DNA from: Solimonas aquatica
Lineage (GTDB): Bacteria; Pseudomonadota; Gammaproteobacteria; Nevskiales; Nevskiaceae
Assembly (NCBI RefSeq): GCF_900111015.1
Contig: NZ_FOFS01000018.1
Coordinates: 1-64,000 of the forward strand
Length of the DNA: 64,000 nt
Direction of reading: 5' to 3'
Shown one piece after another: positions 38,187-46,360 of this stretch (position 1 is the first letter of the stretch; each line of letters begins with the position of its first letter). The notes beneath the pieces were generated by a model that worked only from the letters and a program-made list of their open reading frames with translations, had not been told where the DNA came from and ran no database searches. The translations under genes and the position numbers were made by a program.

Positions 38187-41100
38187 ATGCCCTCCGAGAC
38201 CCCCTATCCGCAGCCCCCCGAATCCCAGCCGCTTGTTCTCAAGGAGCAGGACATCGAGACGGCTTTCATCGAGAAGCTGCGTGACCTCAAGTACACCGAG
38301 CGTCCGGACATCCGCGACCGCGCGGCGCTGGAGGCCAACTTCCGCCAGAAGTTTGAGGCGCTCAATCGCGTCCGCCTCACCGATGGCGAGTTCAAGCGCC
38401 TGCTGGACGAGCTGACCATCCCGGACGTGTTCACCGCCGCCCGTGTGCTGCGCGAGAAAAACGGCTTCACCCGCGAGGACGGCACCCCGCTGACCTACAC
38501 CCTGGTCAACCTCAAGGACTGGTGCAAGAACGACTTCGAGGTCATCCACCAGCTGCGCATCAACACCGATTACAGCCACCACCGCTACGACGTGCTGTTG
38601 CTGATCAACGGCGTGCCAGTGGTCCAGGTGGAGCTCAAGACCTTGAGCGTCAACCCGCGCCGGGCCATGGAGCAGATCGTCGAGTACAAGAACGATCCGG
38701 GCAATGGCTATACCCGCACGCTGCTCTGCTTCGTGCAGCTGTTCGTGGTCAGCAACCGCACCGACACGGTCTACTTCGCCAACAACAACGCCCGGCACTT
38801 TACCTTTAATGCCGATGAGCGCTTTCTGCCCGTGTATCGCTGGGCCGACCGCGACAACAAGCCCGTCAGCCATCTGGACGATTTCGCCGACCGCTTCCTG
38901 CAGAAGTGCGAGCTGGGCCGCATGATCAGCCGCTACATGGTGCTGATTCAGAGTGAGCAGAAGCTGCTGATGATGCGGCCGTACCAGATCTATGCGGTGC
39001 AGGCCATCGTGGACTGCATCGAGCAGAACTGCGGCAATGGCTACATCTGGCACACCACCGGCAGCGGCAAGACGCTCACCTCCTTCAAGGCCGCCACGCT
39101 GCTGAAGGAGAACGAGCAGATCGAAAAATGCCTGTTCGTGGTGGACCGCAAAGACCTGGACCGCCAGACGCGCGAGGAATTCAACAAGTTCCAGGAAGGC
39201 TGCGTGGAGGAAAACACCAACACCGCCACCCTGGTCCGCCGCCTGCTGTCCGACGACAAGGCCGACAAGGTCATCGTCACCACCATCCAGAAGCTGGGCC
39301 TGGCGCTGGACGAAAGCAGCGCCCGCAACACCCAGCGCCTGCGCGAGAACAAGAAAACCTACCGCGAGCTGCTCGCACCGCTGGCATCCAGGCGCATCGT
39401 GTTCATCTTCGACGAATGCCACCGCTCGCAGTTCGGCGAGAACCACGCAGCGATCAAGGCCTTCTTCCCGCGGGCGCAGCTGTTCGGCTTCACCGGCACG
39501 CCGATCTTCGAGCAGAACGCCTCACAGAAGCAGTTCGAGGGCGAGCAGGGTTCCTTCCGCACCACCGAAGACCTGTTCCAGCGCGAGCTGCACGCCTACA
39601 CCATCACCCACGCCATCGAAGACAAGAACGTCCTGCGGTTTCACGTGGACTTCTTTCGTGCCGAGGGCAAGGAACTGCCGGCCGCCGGGCAGACGTTCAC
39701 CAAGCGCGCCATCGTTGAAGCCATTCTCGACAAGCACGAGGCCGCCACCCAGGCGCGCCGCTTCAACGCCCTGTTCGCCACCGCGTCGATCAGCGACGCG
39801 ATCGAATACTACGAGTTGTTCCAGAGTCTTCAGCGCGAGCGGCAGGCGGCCGATCCGGCCTTTGTGCCACTGAAGATCGTCTGCGTGTTCTCGCCACCGG
39901 CAGAAGGCAATCCGGATGTGAAGCAGCTCCAGGAAGACCTGGCCCAGGAGTCGTCCGAGTACGCCATTCAGGCCGGCGAAGACGCGGAGAAGAAGAAAAG
40001 CGAGATTGAGCGCAAGAAGGAAGCGCTCAAGGCCATCATCGCCGACTACAACGCCCGCTACGGCAGCAACCACAGCATCGGCGAGTTTGATCTCTACTAC
40101 CAGGACGTGCAGAAGCGCATCAAGGATCAGCAGTTCCCCAATGCCGACCTGCCGCGCAAGGGCGAGGAGAAGATCGACATCACCCTGGTGGTGGATATGC
40201 TGCTCACCGGCTTCGACTCCAAGTACCTGAACACCTTGTACGTGGACAAGAACCTCAAGCACCACGGCCTGATCCAGGCCTTCTCGCGCACCAACCGCGT
40301 GCTCAACGCCACCAAGCCGCACGGCCAGATTCTGGACTTCCGCGCCCAGCAGAAGCAGGTGGACGAGGCCATCACCCTGTTCTCCGGTGGCAAGAGCGAC
40401 AAGGCCCGCGAGATCTGGCTGGTGGACCCGGCGCCCACCGTCGTAGACAAGCTCAAGGACGCGCTGGCCAAGCTCGGCGACTTCCTGCAATCGCAGGACC
40501 TGCCGCCGGCACCGGAGAGCGTGCCGGCGCTCAAAGGCGACGAAGCCCGCGCCATGTTCATCGAGCGCTTCCGCGAGGTGCAGCGCCTCAAGACCCAGCT
40601 CGACCAGTACACGGACCTGAAGCCCGAGCTAAAAGCGCAAGTGGAAGCCCTGCTGCCGCCGGATCAACTCAATGCCTATCGCGGCGTGTACCTGGGCACT
40701 GCCCAGCGCCTCAAGGAGCAGCAGAACAAGACCGGCGACAAGGCGCCCATCCCGCAGGTGGACCAGCTCGACTTCGAGTTCGTGCTGTTCGCCTCCGCCC
40801 TTATCGACTACGACTACATCATGAAGCTGCTGGCCAACTTCTCCTCGAAGACACCGGGCCGGCAGAGCATGAACCGCGAACAGCTCATCGGCCTGATTGC
40901 CGCCGATGCCAAGTTCATCGACGAGCGCGAGCTGATTACTGACTACGTTTGGACCTTGCGGGAGGGCAGCGGCGAGACGCTGCAACAGATCGAGGCCGGC
41001 TACGTCCGCTTCAAGGCGGAGCGCTTGAGCGCGGAGCTTTCAGCCATCGCCACTCAGCACGGCCTTGTGCCCGAGCGGCTGCAAGCCTTCACCGACGCCA

Positions 41101-41273
41101 TTCTGCAACGCATGGTGTTTGACGGTGAGCAGCTTACCGAGCTGCTGGCGCCGCTGGGTCTGGGATGGCGCGAACGGCGCGTGAAGGAACTGGCACTGAT
41201 GGACGCGCTGCTGCCCGTGCTCAAGAAGCGGGCGGCGGGGCGGGAGATTTCCGGATTGAGCGCATACGAATAA
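38187..41273 (+). CDS. hsdR: Type I restriction enzyme, R subunit (type IC-like)
   Basis: 1028 residues. The nuclease residues Asp135, Glu149 and Lys151 have the same spacing as the D-(x13)-ExK triad of EcoR124I. The motor has Walker A TTGSGKT (to Thr296), DECH (409-412) and FTGTP. Length and N-terminal pattern match the EcoR124I/EcoprrI group. HsdR translocates and cuts unmodified DNA in complex with HsdM and HsdS. It heads a five-gene operon, and its TAA overlaps the hsdS ATG (TAATG). Confidence 0.95.
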   Translation: MPSETPYPQPPESQPLVLKEQDIETAFIEKLRDLKYTERPDIRDRAALEANFRQKFEALNRVRLTDGEFKRLLDELTIPDVFTAARVLREKNGFTREDGTPLTYTLVNLKDWCKNDFEVIHQLRINTDYSHHRYDVLLLINGVPVVQVELKTLSVNPRRAMEQIVEYKNDPGNGYTRTLLCFVQLFVVSNRTDTVYFANNNARHFTFNADERFLPVYRWADRDNKPVSHLDDFADRFLQKCELGRMISRYMVLIQSEQKLLMMRPYQIYAVQAIVDCIEQNCGNGYIWHTTGSGKTLTSFKAATLLKENEQIEKCLFVVDRKDLDRQTREEFNKFQEGCVEENTNTATLVRRLLSDDKADKVIVTTIQKLGLALDESSARNTQRLRENKKTYRELLAPLASRRIVFIFDECHRSQFGENHAAIKAFFPRAQLFGFTGTPIFEQNASQKQFEGEQGSFRTTEDLFQRELHAYTITHAIEDKNVLRFHVDFFRAEGKELPAAGQTFTKRAIVEAILDKHEAATQARRFNALFATASISDAIEYYELFQSLQRERQAADPAFVPLKIVCVFSPPAEGNPDVKQLQEDLAQESSEYAIQAGEDAEKKKSEIERKKEALKAIIADYNARYGSNHSIGEFDLYYQDVQKRIKDQQFPNADLPRKGEEKIDITLVVDMLLTGFDSKYLNTLYVDKNLKHHGLIQAFSRTNRVLNATKPHGQILDFRAQQKQVDEAITLFSGGKSDKAREIWLVDPAPTVVDKLKDALAKLGDFLQSQDLPPAPESVPALKGDEARAMFIERFREVQRLKTQLDQYTDLKPELKAQVEALLPPDQLNAYRGVYLGTAQRLKEQQNKTGDKAPIPQVDQLDFEFVLFASALIDYDYIMKLLANFSSKTPGRQSMNREQLIGLIAADAKFIDERELITDYVWTLREGSGETLQQIEAGYVRFKAERLSAELSAIATQHGLVPERLQAFTDAILQRMVFDGEQLTELLAPLGLGWRERRVKELALMDALLPVLKKRAAGREISGLSAYE

Positions 41274-42520
41274 TGAAAGCCTCAGACGCGCTCACACCAA
41301 AGCTGCGATTCCCGGAGTTTGAGGGCGAATGGAAATCAGTCCCGGTTGGTGATTTCTTTGATCTCGCCGATAGAGCTGAAAAGGCGGCGTCTTTTGAGAA
41401 GGAAAAACTTCTTACCGTCAGACTCCATGCAAATGGCGTGACAAAAAATGAGAAGACAACACTCACTGGTGGTGCGAGCTACTTCCAACGCCGTGCCGGT
41501 CAATTCATCTTCTCGAAAATAGATTTGCTCAACGGCGCTTTTGGAGTCGTACCGGCTGAGCTGGATGGTTTCGCCTCATCGTCAGACGTTCCAGCGTTTT
41601 CGTTCAACACCAAACATGCGCCGGCGTTCTTTCTGAGTTGGCTCAAGTCGAGTTATCAGCGTCTTGAAATCGAGCGAACCGGAACGAGCAGTACGCTGAA
41701 GCGAGTTTCACCTGAGGCGTTCCTCAAGGTCGCAATCTCAGCGCCTACTAAAGCCGAACAACAAAAAATCGCCGAGTGCCTGAGCACGCTGGACGAGCTG
41801 ATCGATGCGGCAAGCCAAAAACTCGACGCGCTCAAGGCCCACAAAAAAGGGCTCATGCAGCAACTCTTCCCCCGCGAAGGCGAAACCCTCCCCCGCCTCC
41901 GCTTTCCCGAGTTTCAGGACGCGCCGGAGTGGGAGCAGAAGATACTGGGCGGCCTCTCGACGATTGTTCGCGGAGGCTCTCCTCGCCCCATCGATGGCTA
42001 TCTGACCAAGCTGCCAGATGGATTGAACTGGCTAAAAATCGGTGACGTCGATAAAGAATCGAAGTTCGTAACTCAAACTGAAGAGCGCGTTCGGCCAGAA
42101 GCTCTCAGCAAGACTAGAGAGGTCTTCCCAGGCGACCTAATTCTGTCCAACTCAATGAGTTTCGGTCGGCCATACATCCTGAAGATCAGAACCTGCATCC
42201 ACGACGGCTGGATTGCAGTGACTTGTCTCTCGAAGTTGATTGACCGTGATTTTCTTTACTACGCCATCGGCGCGCCAAGCAGCCAAAGTTTCTTCAATGA
42301 TCAGGCGGCTGGAGGCGGCGTTAAAAATCTCAACGCAGACATCATCAAGTCCCTAGCCATCGCTCACCCAACCGTCGCAGAACAACAGCGCATCGCCTCC
42401 TGCCTCTCCTCCCTCGACGACCTGATCGCCGCCCAAAGCGACCAGCTCGAAGCCCTCAAGACCCACAAGAAAGGGCTCATGCAGCAGCTTTTCCCTTCCC
42501 CTGTTGAGGCCGAGGGTTAA
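41273..42520 (+). CDS. hsdS: Type I restriction enzyme, S (specificity) subunit
   Basis: 415 residues. Two target-recognition domains each start LRFPEF. Each is followed by a conserved coiled-coil repeat (QQKIAECLSTLDELI and QQRIASCLSSLDDLI, both ending KGLMQQLFP). The subunit selects the bipartite DNA site for restriction and methylation. The first recognition domain is close to 50% GC, well below hsdR, which is typical of swapped specificity modules. The start overlaps the hsdR stop codon; prrC follows after five bases. The target sequence cannot be predicted. Confidence 0.94.
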   Translation: MKASDALTPKLRFPEFEGEWKSVPVGDFFDLADRAEKAASFEKEKLLTVRLHANGVTKNEKTTLTGGASYFQRRAGQFIFSKIDLLNGAFGVVPAELDGFASSSDVPAFSFNTKHAPAFFLSWLKSSYQRLEIERTGTSSTLKRVSPEAFLKVAISAPTKAEQQKIAECLSTLDELIDAASQKLDALKAHKKGLMQQLFPREGETLPRLRFPEFQDAPEWEQKILGGLSTIVRGGSPRPIDGYLTKLPDGLNWLKIGDVDKESKFVTQTEERVRPEALSKTREVFPGDLILSNSMSFGRPYILKIRTCIHDGWIAVTCLSKLIDRDFLYYAIGAPSSQSFFNDQAAGGGVKNLNADIIKSLAIAHPTVAEQQRIASCLSSLDDLIAAQSDQLEALKTHKKGLMQQLFPSPVEAEG

Positions 42521-42525
42521 GCGCC

Positions 42526-43710
42526 ATGCCGTTCGCCGACCTCACCGAACTGGCCACGCACCTCCGTCAGGAGTTACAGAACAAGAAGTGCATCCTGCTA
42601 TACGCCTACAACGGCACCGGCAAGACGCGCCTCTCCACGGCCTTCAAGGACTTAGGAAAGCGCCTCGAAACTGAGCGGTTAACAACTGAGACTGACGAGC
42701 CCATCGAGACGGAAGATGGGCAAAGTATCGAGGTCAACGTCTGGCGGGGCGATACGCTTTACTTCAATGCCTTCACAGAAGACCTGTTCTCCTGGGACAA
42801 TGATCTCGTGGATGATCGTGAGCGGGTACTGAAGCTCAACCGGGATTCCACCTTCTTTGCTGGCCTCGACGATCTGGAGATGGATAACCGCATCCGACCA
42901 CTGCTGAGTCGCTATGCGGATTTTGATTTCCGGATCGATACCGAAGTATGGGAGGTGAGCTTTTCGCGCGATATCACGACGGGCGAGGGCGCGGCGGCGA
43001 CCACAACGACGCTGTATGACATCAAGGTTTCTCGCGGCGAAGAGAATATTTTCATCTGGTGCTTCTTCCTCGCCATCGTGCAGCTCGCCATGGACGACGA
43101 CGGCAGCGGTCCGTACCGCTGGGTGAAGTACGTTTACATCGACGATCCGATTTCGTCGCTCGATGAGCACAATGCGATTACCGTCGCTAATCATCTCGCG
43201 CAGATGCTCAAGCGCCAGGGCAATCGACTCAAGACGGTTATCTCCACCCACCACCCACTGTTCTTCAACGTCTTGTGGAACGAGTTCAGGAACGCGAGCA
43301 AGTATTTCCTGAGCCGGACCGCGCCGGGCGGCTACGAGTTGCGCGAAACTGGAGATACACCTTATTTCCACCACGTGGCAGCGCTGGCGGAGCTTTATCG
43401 GGCGGACCAGTCGGGACGCCTGTTCACGCACCACTTCAACATGCTGCGCAGCGTGATGGAGAAGACCGCGAGCTTTCACGGGCACAAGGGCTTCTCCGCC
43501 TGCATCCGGCAGGACGATGACGATAGTGACGCAGTGCTTCACACCCGCCTCGTCAATATCATGAGCCACGGCAACTACTCGCTATATGAGCCGCAGGAGA
43601 TGCTGGAGGAGAACAAGCGTTACTTCCGCAAGATTCTCCACGGGTTCATCGCGCGCTATCCGTTCAACCCGGAGCTGTTTCCCAGCGCGCCTAACAGCGG
43701 AACGTCCTGA
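42526..43710 (+). CDS. prrC: PrrC-like anticodon nuclease
   Basis: 394 residues, near the 396 of E. coli PrrC. The N-terminal ABC-type NTPase has Walker A AYNGTGKT (27-34), FNAFTEDLFSWDND, signature VSRGEE (168-173) and Walker B/D-loop YVYIDDPISSLD (202-213). The C-terminal nuclease part has MLRSVMEKTASF and NIMSHGN. Arg308, Glu312 and His348 line up with the Arg320-Glu324-His356 triad of PrrC. PrrC cuts tRNA-Lys in the anticodon loop when a phage disables the associated restriction enzyme. Asp277 matches the PrrC anticodon-recognition aspartate less surely. Alignment is from memory. Its TGA overlaps the rhuM ATG. Confidence 0.87.
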   Translation: MPFADLTELATHLRQELQNKKCILLYAYNGTGKTRLSTAFKDLGKRLETERLTTETDEPIETEDGQSIEVNVWRGDTLYFNAFTEDLFSWDNDLVDDRERVLKLNRDSTFFAGLDDLEMDNRIRPLLSRYADFDFRIDTEVWEVSFSRDITTGEGAAATTTTLYDIKVSRGEENIFIWCFFLAIVQLAMDDDGSGPYRWVKYVYIDDPISSLDEHNAITVANHLAQMLKRQGNRLKTVISTHHPLFFNVLWNEFRNASKYFLSRTAPGGYELRETGDTPYFHHVAALAELYRADQSGRLFTHHFNMLRSVMEKTASFHGHKGFSACIRQDDDDSDAVLHTRLVNIMSHGNYSLYEPQEMLEENKRYFRKILHGFIARYPFNPELFPSAPNSGTS

Positions 43711-44717
43711 TGCTGATCCTCTACACCACCGAAGACGGCAAAAGCCAGATTAAGCTGCGGGCTGATCAGCAGACTGTCTGGCTGACGCAGCTCGAAATGG
43801 CGGAGCTGTTTGACGCCAGCAAGCAGAACATCTCCCTTCACCTGAAAAATATCTTTGAAGACGGGGAATTAGACCCTGCGGCAACTGTCAAGGAATCCTT
43901 GACAGTTCAGGTCGAAGGCGAGCGCGAGATCCGCCGGCCCGTCACGCTGTACAACCTGGACGCCATTCTGGCGGTCGGCTACCGCGTACGCTCGCCGCGT
44001 GGCGTGCAGTTCCGTCGCTGGGCGTCCACCATCCTCAAGGAGTACCTGCTCAAGGGCTTCGCGATGGACGACGAGCGGCTGAAGAACCCGGACGGCCGCC
44101 CGGACTACTTCGACGAGATGCTGGCGCGCATTCGCGACATCCGTGCCTCTGAGAAGCGCTTCTACCAGAAAGTGCGCGATCTGTTCGCGCTGTGCGTCGA
44201 CTACGACAAGACCGACCGCGCCACCCAGCAGTTCTTTGCCACGGTGCAGAATCTGCTGATCTATGCGGTGACCCGCCAGACGGCTGCCGAGCTGGTGATG
44301 GCGCGCGCCAATCCGGATGATGCCAACTTTGGTCTACTCAGCTGGAAGGGCAGCAAGGTGCGCAAGGCGGACATCCTCGTCGCCAAGAATTATCTGACGG
44401 AAGATGAAATCGACACCCTGAACCGGCTCGTGGTGATCTTTCTGGAAACCGCCGAGTTGCGCGCCAAGAACCGCAAGGAGACGCGCATGGCGTTCTGGAA
44501 GGAGAATGTCGATCAGATCATCACCTCCAACGGCTTTCCCTTGCTCGCGGGCAAGGGCAGCGTGAGCCACGAACAGATGCAAGTCGCCACCGAGGCGCGC
44601 TACGAGGGCTTCGATGCGCGGCGCAAGCAGCAGGAAGCCCTCGCAGACGACGCGGCGGACGAGGCCGAGTTGAAGCAGCTCGAAGCCACGATCAAGCGTC
44701 GCCCCAAGAAATCCTGA
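43710..44717 (+). CDS. RhuM family protein
   Basis: 335 residues. The N-terminal part looks like a DNA-binding module (VWLTQLEMAELFDASKQNIS resembles a helix-turn-helix), followed by the RhuM family core with GYRVRSPRGVQFRRWAS. The C-terminus is lysine/glutamate-rich and helical. RhuM (Virulence_RhuM) proteins recur beside type I restriction genes and in defence islands, but their action is not established. The ATG overlaps the prrC stop codon, and hsdM starts 11 bases after this gene, so it is an integral operon member. Confidence 0.9.
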   Translation: MLILYTTEDGKSQIKLRADQQTVWLTQLEMAELFDASKQNISLHLKNIFEDGELDPAATVKESLTVQVEGEREIRRPVTLYNLDAILAVGYRVRSPRGVQFRRWASTILKEYLLKGFAMDDERLKNPDGRPDYFDEMLARIRDIRASEKRFYQKVRDLFALCVDYDKTDRATQQFFATVQNLLIYAVTRQTAAELVMARANPDDANFGLLSWKGSKVRKADILVAKNYLTEDEIDTLNRLVVIFLETAELRAKNRKETRMAFWKENVDQIITSNGFPLLAGKGSVSHEQMQVATEARYEGFDARRKQQEALADDAADEAELKQLEATIKRRPKKS

Positions 44718-44728
44718 TTGCCCTCTTC

Positions 44729-46360
44729 ATGAACGACAAAGACCAAAAACAACTCGGCAAGACGCTCTGGAACATCGCCGACCAACTGCGCGGTGCGATG
44801 AACGCGGACGACTTCCGCGATTACATGCTGGCGTTTCTCTTTTTGCGCTATCTCTCCGACAACTACGAGGCGGCGGCGAAGAAGGAACTGGGGCCGGATT
44901 ACCCCAAACTGTCCGCAGACGATACCCGCGTGCCGCTGGCCGTTTGGTACGCCGCCAACTCATCAGACGCTGTCGAATTTGAAAAGCAGATGCGCCGCAA
45001 GGTGCATTACGTGATCAAGCCCGAGCATCTCTGGGCCAGCATCGTCGCGCAGGCCAGGCGGCAGAGCGATGACTTGCTGGAAACCCTGCGCGAAGGTTTC
45101 AAGTACATCGAGAACGAGTCGTTCCAGAGCACCTTCAACGGCCTGTTTTCCGAGATCAATCTGGGTTCGGAGAAGTTGGGCCGCAGCCATGCCGACAAGA
45201 ACAAGCGGTTGTGCGAGATCATCAAGGAGATTGCCCGTGGGCTGGCCGAGTTTTCCACGGAAGTGGATGTGCTGGGCGATGCCTACGAATACCTGATCGG
45301 CGAGTTTGCGGCCGGCTCCGGCAAGAAGGCCGGCGAGTTCTACACCCCGCAGCGCATCTCCGACATTCTCTCCGCCATCGTCACGCTGGATAGCCAGGCG
45401 CCGGAAACTGGCACAGTGAAGCACCTGGGCAGCGTGTTCGACTTTGCCTGCGGCTCCGGCTCGCTGCTGCTGAATGTGCGCAAGATGGTTCGGAAGAACC
45501 AGGGCACGATCGGCCGGATCGTCGGTCAGGAAAAGAACATCACCACCTACAACCTCGCGCGCATGAACATGCTGCTGCACGGGGTGAAGGACACCGAGTT
45601 CGAGATCTACCACGGCGACACTCTGCTCAATGACTGGGATTATCTTCGGGAAACCAACCCGGCGAAGATGCCCAAGTTCGATGCCGTGGTCGCCAATCCG
45701 CCCTTCAGCTATCGCTGGGAGCCGAAGGAGGCCATGGGCGAAGACGTGCGCTTCAAGAACCACGGCCTCGCGCCGAAGTCCGCTGCCGACTTCGCGTTTC
45801 TGCTCCATGGCTTTCATTACCTGAAAGACCAGGGTGTGATGGCCATTATCCTGCCGCATGGCGTGCTGTTTCGCGGCGGCGCCGAGGAGCGCATCCGCAC
45901 CAAGCTGCTCACGGATGGGCATATCGATACCGTCATCGGCCTGCCGGCCAACCTGTTTTATTCCACCGGCATTCCGGTCTGCATCCTGGTGCTGAAGAAG
46001 TGCAAGAAGCCGGACGATGTGCTGTTCATCAACGCCGCCGAGCACTTCGACAAGGGCAAGCGCCAGAACACCCTCAGTGACGCGCACATCGAGAAGATTG
46101 TCAGCACCTACCAGTACCGCCGCGAGGAGCCACGCTACGCCAAGCGTGTGTCCATGGCGCGCATTGCCGAGGAAGGCTACAACCTCAACATCTCCCGCTA
46201 CATCAGCACCGCCGTGGCGGAGAAGGAGATCGATCTTCATGCCACGCATCAGCATCTGGTGGAGATCGAAAAGAAGATTCGCGCCGCCACGCAGAAGCAC
46301 AATGCGTTTCTACGGGAATTGAACCTCCCTGCTCTACCAGGCGGCAAAGAGCAGGAATGA
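44729..46360 (+). CDS. hsdM: Type I restriction enzyme, M (methyltransferase) subunit
   Basis: 543 residues. An N-terminal helical domain (DFRDYMLAFLFLRYLSDNY) precedes the N6-adenine methyltransferase core: SAM-binding FDFACGSGSLLLN and catalytic NPPF (323-326). With HsdS it methylates the recognition site; with HsdR it restricts. It is the last gene of the operon, which is unusual because M normally precedes S. The 256 bases after it hold imperfect GC-rich inverted repeats but no gene I can support. Confidence 0.95.
   Translation: MNDKDQKQLGKTLWNIADQLRGAMNADDFRDYMLAFLFLRYLSDNYEAAAKKELGPDYPKLSADDTRVPLAVWYAANSSDAVEFEKQMRRKVHYVIKPEHLWASIVAQARRQSDDLLETLREGFKYIENESFQSTFNGLFSEINLGSEKLGRSHADKNKRLCEIIKEIARGLAEFSTEVDVLGDAYEYLIGEFAAGSGKKAGEFYTPQRISDILSAIVTLDSQAPETGTVKHLGSVFDFACGSGSLLLNVRKMVRKNQGTIGRIVGQEKNITTYNLARMNMLLHGVKDTEFEIYHGDTLLNDWDYLRETNPAKMPKFDAVVANPPFSYRWEPKEAMGEDVRFKNHGLAPKSAADFAFLLHGFHYLKDQGVMAIILPHGVLFRGGAEERIRTKLLTDGHIDTVIGLPANLFYSTGIPVCILVLKKCKKPDDVLFINAAEHFDKGKRQNTLSDAHIEKIVSTYQYRREEPRYAKRVSMARIAEEGYNLNISRYISTAVAEKEIDLHATHQHLVEIEKKIRAATQKHNAFLRELNLPALPGGKEQE

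Follow-up and report, generated by a model that had tools for sequence, protein, structure and literature searches.

The window, a stretch of 64,000 nucleotides from Solimonas aquatica (contig NZ_FOFS01000018.1), carries five closely packed genes in the order hsdR–hsdS–prrC–rhuM–hsdM, all on the forward strand: the hsdS start overlaps the hsdR stop (TAATG), a 5-base gap separates hsdS from prrC, the rhuM start overlaps the prrC stop (TGATG) and an 11-base gap separates rhuM from hsdM. The first gene, hsdR (38187..41273, +), encodes a restriction/translocation subunit of 1028 amino acids with EcoR124_C, HSDR_N and SWI2_SNF2 domains, a VELK nuclease motif, TGSGKT at 291 and DECH at 409, and its best PDB matches were to EcoR124 HsdR. 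The specificity subunit gene hsdS (41273..42520, +; placed by junction and translation) has two target-recognition halves, seen as two stretches of Methylase_S in a Pfam scan that used the longer open reading frame starting at 41165. Downstream of prrC (42526..43710, +) lie rhuM (43710..44717, +; 335 amino acids; PF13310, 1.8e-109; PADLOC PDC-S05) and hsdM (44729..46360, +), which encodes an N6-adenine methyltransferase of 543 amino acids (N6_Mtase, 2e-102; TIGR00497; DFACGSG and NPPF motifs). By domains and motifs, the type I restriction–modification (R-M) set is complete, with hsdR, hsdS and hsdM intact, which bears out an earlier sequence-only reading that had placed prrC inside a type I restriction operon; the rhuM gene between prrC and hsdM went unmentioned there.

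The same reading had ascribed type IC character to the flanking genes, which we qualify. Our E. coli reference was L012, a plasmid locus (record CP057689.1) encoding a 396-amino-acid 'anticodon nuclease' in the order hsdM–hsdS–prrC–hsdR (a gene annotated as a 3'-phosphatase lies downstream on this plasmid; L012:10471-10977, −). Its HsdM scored 1155 bits against EcoR124II HsdM, so that the R-M partner of the reference is, by this comparison, type IC proper. The window's HsdM reached 296 bits against EcoR124II HsdM, its second-best solved relative (384 bits against 3lkd), and HsdM and HsdR are about 36% and 32% identical, respectively, to the EcoR124-type set of the reference. On these similarities, we class the window's enzyme as a sister of type IC, IC-like and not EcoR124-type proper. 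The whole operon looks acquired: the G+C content of its five genes is 54–62%, two flanking genes that we measured have 66.5% and 68.1%, and a dip in the 2-kb profile coincides with the operon; searches of the host genome (98.4% complete) returned a single N6_Mtase match and a single AAA_13 match, both within this operon. An empty-site test via the flanking PQQ dehydrogenase gene recovered seven sister regions whose similarity to the window (blastn E ≤ 1e-15) is confined to that gene, and it therefore located no boundary at which the operon as a whole was inserted. The 64-kb window contains no tRNA gene, the two tested flanks held no inverted repeats and merely two short direct-repeat pairs, and promoter and terminator scans were near chance (2 versus 1.6 expected and 11 versus 8.6 expected, respectively).

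The reading frame at 42526..43710 runs for 394 codons without a stop and represents a real, apparently intact prrC gene; on the opposite strand the mirrored frame is interrupted by stops, and an antisense open reading frame of 296 codons that overlies prrC in another frame (42679..43569) had no support that we could see. Its product matched the PADLOC PrrC model PDLC02360 with 458 bits (E = 4.6e-138; the runner-up, PDC-S06, reached 62 bits), the same model was matched by 65 of the 65 members of one alignment (A2), and relatives were found on 113 plasmid records (E ≤ 1e-5), so the PrrC match is not due to chance; a search of NCBIfam gave 0 matches. The motifs of an ABC-ATPase, and a stretch conserved in PrrC, all lie in the N-terminal two thirds of the protein: Walker A (AYNGTGKT, residues 27–34; 42604..42627, +), whose K33 is kept in 94 of the 96 rows of the PrrC alignment; the conserved PrrC stretch FNAFTEDLF (residues 80–88; 42763..42789, +; from translation and alignment); the ABC signature VSRGE (residues 168–172; 43027..43041, +), with S169 and G171 in 96/96 rows; and Walker B with the D-loop (IDDPISSLD, residues 205–213; 43138..43164, +), with D206, D207 and D213 in 96/96. 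H242 is likewise invariant.

The C-terminal third bears the predicted active site. Arg308 (43447..43449, +), Glu312 (43459..43461, +) and His348 of the window protein align with R320, E324 and H356 of the E. coli reference, the published PrrC catalytic triad (PMC2610378), and all three are present in 96/96 rows; these rows were selected by likeness to PrrC, and the invariance therefore speaks for conservation and is not an independent discovery. His348 closes a predicted HEPN motif of the form Rx6H that begins at Arg341 (43546..43569, +; Arg in 95/96 rows), within the definition Rx4-6H (PMC3710099). From Glu to His the spacing is 36 in the window protein and in 9 of the 12 relatives compared, versus 32 in the reference (our script did not resolve it for L010 and L013). 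The window frame is confirmed, from model match, alignment and operon setting, as encoding a PrrC-family protein, and the PrrC call of the sequence-only reading survived along with its details: every motif that it had named is present, AYNGTGKT (from residue 27), FNAFTEDLF and IDDPISSLD among them, the three residues that it had named as the triad occur in that order in the full alignment with E. coli PrrC, and among family models PrrC scores best, not a plain ABC ATPase, which it had named as a refuting outcome.

We then placed the window protein among its relatives, and these fall into two large lineages that differ in gene order and in their Hsd proteins. In a maximum-likelihood tree of the 96 rows, four PrrCs from hsdM-first loci split off together with L002 by a fully supported branch of length 3.97, and the other 91, including the window's, lie opposite. 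L002 comes from a cut locus in which hsdR follows prrC, and the tree puts it in the hsdM-first clade, so we assign it there; the window PrrC belongs, by tree and gene order, to the hsdR–hsdS–prrC–hsdM lineage. Its sister in the tree is an Elusimicrobiales PrrC (77% identical) in an hsdR–hsdS–prrC–hsdM operon without rhuM. Locus typing, by best BLAST against the window's set versus the reference set, assigned 103 of 122 PrrC genes to the window type and 19 to the prototype type, and wherever a neighbouring HsdM or HsdR was found it was of the same type as its PrrC, apart from one additional HsdR of type A at L070; the gaps (among the 103, 16 with no HsdR found and 1 with no HsdM; among the 19, 5 with no HsdM) fall mostly on cut loci. 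The genome-contig loci that we used are the best 79 of 554 relatives, ranked by likeness to the window, and do not show how common the other lineage is. Viral contigs yielded 28 loci with PrrC relatives, 27 of them with a PrrC of appreciable length (13 of the window type and 14 of the prototype type), and phage records searched at E ≤ 1e-5 yielded none. At this broad scale, PrrC has kept to one R-M lineage in each case, a fixed pairing of the kind that a physical complex of PrrC with the R-M enzyme would predict. One Rhodocyclaceae contig (L037) carries two hsdS–prrC–hsdM units of the window's lineage in tandem.

This lineage is also found in E. coli itself. A plasmid-borne E. coli relative (L008) is 67% identical to the window PrrC in BLAST, and its DNA as a query matched 83 of 5,426 E. 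coli genomes. The earlier placing of this defence far from the E. coli case therefore stands for identity to the EcoprrI-type PrrC (about 35%) and does not stand otherwise, given these matches and a tested system of the same layout, PrrC170 (PMC11555353). Among the host's kin, a strong PrrC occurred in 3 of 61 genomes, the host included, with weak matches (E of 6.4e-8 to 8.5e-4) in three more.

At a finer scale, PrrC is a common but optional, and apparently exchanged, component of this R-M chassis, because related operons carry the same HsdM without PrrC or with another gene in its place. Within the host's order, this HsdM was found in 7 of 85 genomes (E ≤ 1e-150), and the gene after hsdS varied among them, with HsdR and HsdM 68–88% identical to the window's in the operons with differing occupants. 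Two genomes of the same genus have a DUF3800 protein (G006; L169:3914-4660, +) or an IS200-like Y1 transposase (G001; L166:6040-6789, −) at the prrC position, followed in both by rhuM (83%) and hsdM (84–88%); inspected by eye, these two operons and the window have nearly identical DNA at the end of hsdS and at the start of rhuM, with different genes in between. Elsewhere in the order, the place is taken by a zeta-toxin-like protein with neither a PrrC nor a rhuM match (G044; L173:7070-7585, +), by a PrrC 65% identical to the window's without rhuM (G052), by a PrrC 48% identical with a RhuM at 83% (G080), or by a PrrC only 31% identical, within an operon whose HsdR, RhuM and HsdM are 81, 83 and 82% identical to the window's (G064). 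Across a phylum-wide sample, this HsdM occurred in 12 of 398 genomes; nine of these, counting the window, have a PrrC beside it, and the remaining three (G145, G249 and G264) gave no PrrC match.

The most divergent of these proteins belongs to a third, far-diverged PrrC type, found at L171:4666-5754 (−), L178:5865-7004 (+) and L041:5190-6263 (+), 29–31% identical to the window's in BLAST. All three have both Walker motifs and the triad intact; the position of Asp277 is N, N and R, the HEPN Arg is missing in two, and the two that were scanned still matched PrrC in PADLOC (E of 9.7e-100 and 2.2e-101). At L041, one operon encodes both the third-type PrrC and a typical one from the window's lineage.

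The place between hsdS and rhuM/hsdM could be a dedicated, exchangeable effector slot, in which the restriction complex would serve as a common 'lock' holding different suicide effectors, with PrrC merely the best known of them; we advance this tentatively, as a proposal that may well prove wrong. One occupant is a transposase, which calls for caution, and the place may be a mere insertion hot spot. Additional genes were seen at all three junctions: inserts of more than 350 bases interrupted 12 of 72 R/S gaps, 11 of 82 S/PrrC gaps and 12 of 86 PrrC/M gaps (counting only loci with a PrrC more than 40% identical and with the needed neighbours found). Pfam matched 18 of the 20 insert proteins chosen, including SMC/AAA (annotated TrlF), SLFN_AlbA_2, Bro-N, KilA-N, Fic, DEAD helicase, DprA, DNA methylase, HEPN_LA2681, Ymh with a GHKL ATPase, YhcG and a second PrrC-like protein. 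Three plasmid operons of the hsdR–hsdS–prrC–hsdM order (L008, L106 and L107) carry a gene for an annotated TrlF-family ATPase and one for an AlbA-type RNA-binding-domain protein between hsdR and hsdS, and L024–L026 have open reading frames of equal size to this pair at the same place.

Considering locus, protein and relatives together, the product of the window gene is very probably an anticodon nuclease of the PrrC type, acting as guardian of the restriction system in whose operon it lies: an ABC-ATPase head is joined to a C-terminal Arg-Glu-His/HEPN domain, in a tight operon with a complete IC-like R-M enzyme. The low identity to the prototype (about 35%) and the occurrence of the R-M partner without PrrC in related genomes count against this. 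If the guardian reading is right, PrrC would be held silent by binding to the HsdR/S/M complex; a phage inhibitor that disables the complex would let the ATPase head activate the RNase domain (in E. coli with the help of dTTP), and the activated enzyme would cleave a tRNA of the host, most probably tRNA-Lys, on the 5' side of the wobble base, whereupon translation would stop and the phage burst would be lost. Restriction would thus form a first layer of defence and PrrC a second, and RhuM may add a third function. This prototype mechanism, described for E. coli PrrC (PMC2610378, PMC12707154, PMC3874165), is our best reading for the window protein, since PrrC170, itself 35% identical to EcoPrrC, stops phages and targets tRNA-Lys.

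An alternative to this reading concerns the substrate. Asp277 of the window protein (43354..43356, +) aligns with Asp287 of E. coli PrrC, a residue that we take to have a role in tRNA-Lys recognition, and D stands in this column in 5 of the 5 EcoprrI-type rows. The tRNA target of the window's lineage may vary, because the column holds D in just 54 of its 91 rows (S in 10, E in 8, K in 8, A in 6 and five others once each). The loop at Asp277 is two residues shorter than in the reference and L017, a difference that does not extend to L002, L013 and L018, which belong to the clade of those two; the distantly homologous RloC has a substrate preference unlike that of PrrC (PMC2610378). Against an enzyme of the PrrC fold whose target is not tRNA-Lys, or that has several targets, stand the retention of Asp277 in the window protein and the targeting of tRNA-Lys by PrrC170, which has the same layout (PMC11555353), and we consider such an enzyme unlikely here.

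A different silencing partner is suggested by the arrangement of rhuM, which starts on the prrC stop codon, as might be expected if the two formed a toxin–antitoxin pair in which RhuM, and not the restriction enzyme, held PrrC silent. Among 91 other loci (L008–L098), rhuM adjoins prrC in 10 (between prrC and hsdM in 6, between hsdS and prrC in 4), and the other 81 have no rhuM match; conversely, rhuM sits in the same operon type without prrC in G001 and G006. In the host's kin, RhuM occurs in 23 of 61 genomes, in 13 of them over nearly the whole model, versus 3 of 61 for strong PrrC, and, of the 12 full-length rhuM copies inspected, 9 are not close to Hsd genes like these. On the distribution of the two genes, we discarded as our main reading the idea that RhuM is an antitoxin dedicated to PrrC, and we regard it as very improbable. 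The predicted structure of RhuM (AF2, mean pLDDT 85) had no solved match in Foldseek at E ≤ 0.001. In one viral-contig locus of the hsdM–hsdS–prrC–hsdR lineage, rhuM follows directly after hsdR (L127:10324-11337, +).

Structure prediction, which the sequence-only reading had proposed as a check, gave a PrrC model of good overall confidence (AF2, mean pLDDT 89, pTM 0.74). A helix at residues 302–317 bears R308 and E312, and a second, at 337–347, stops just before H348, a layout in the model that is consistent with a HEPN bundle. Foldseek returned 11 chains at E ≤ 0.001, all weak (TM-scores of 0.15–0.32): four clamp-loader chains, the top match among them, four Rad50 heads, two retron ATPases and one P-glycoprotein, with no HEPN, nuclease-domain or PrrC structure among these matches; a sequence search for a solved PrrC structure found none. 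Because no HEPN structure matched, we base the assignment to HEPN on the motif and its published definition (PMC3710099). These matches, together with Pfam, which sees AAA_13 alone (residues 167–371), would fit an expressed ABC-ATPase sensor that does not cleave RNA; this is hard to reconcile with a triad kept in every row, a HEPN Arg kept in all rows but one and PrrC as the best PADLOC model, and we give it very little credence. Equally doubtful is a decayed or unexpressed relic that arrived with the island, which the lower G+C and the lack of a promoter above chance might suggest and which five genes free of internal stops, tight junctions and intact catalytic motifs oppose.

Returning to the guardian reading, we compared the window with systems described previously. 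It resembles EcoprrI and E. coli PrrC in combining an ABC-ATPase with an Arg-Glu-His RNase domain in a type I operon, with the motif order of the reference, and differs from them in identity (about 35%), in gene order (hsdR–hsdS–prrC–hsdM, against hsdM–hsdS–prrC–hsdR in the reference) and in its HsdM, which is not of the EcoR124 type proper (296 bits to EcoR124II HsdM, against 1155). A 2008 paper stated that orthologues of E. coli PrrC are linked without exception to a type Ic system (PMC2610378). RloC has an ABC-ATPase and the same catalytic triad, and is 658–897 amino acids long, with a zinc-hook coiled coil and R-M linkage in 8 of 73 cases (PMC2610378); we ruled it out for the window protein, which has 394 amino acids, no zinc-hook insert and no long coiled-coil helices in its model.

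Closest by description is PrrC170 of Klebsiella quasipneumoniae, which couples an ABC-ATPase effector to a type I R-M system and whose genes are listed as HsdR, HsdS, PrrC, HsdM. It blocks the phages T1 and T7, brings growth to a halt and, as judged by tRNA sequencing, targets tRNA-Lys (PMC11555353). From this gene list and the stated 35% identity to EcoPrrC, we infer that PrrC170 belongs to the window's lineage, a placement set by its description; it has four genes, without RhuM. Two K. quasipneumoniae plasmid matches were considered as PrrC170 itself and did not correspond, both having two extra genes between hsdR and hsdS. The accessible literature on the hsdR–hsdS–prrC–hsdM branch does not show masking of PrrC by its restriction complex, and the matched PrrC and Hsd types support a physical partnership there.

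PrrC embedded in R-M loci is also reported from Pseudomonas island hotspots (PMC12629846), and a 2013 survey of HEPN proteins placed some PrrC-like proteins in loci with R-M and RhuM-like genes, a neighbourhood like the window's, and proposed multi-level defence (PMC3710099). PrrC beside R-M and RhuM was therefore already known. A replacement of prrC by other genes in related operons is absent from the accessible part of that survey, and we found no statement of it in the literature searched, most subscription papers lying outside our coverage; the exchangeable place of prrC is accordingly the modestly new part of our finding. Such exchange within one order raises the question of whether the same restriction complex also silences DUF3800 or zeta-toxin-like proteins. 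Relative to the systems already described, the window adds a further host of the hsdR–hsdS–prrC–hsdM arrangement of this putative guardian.
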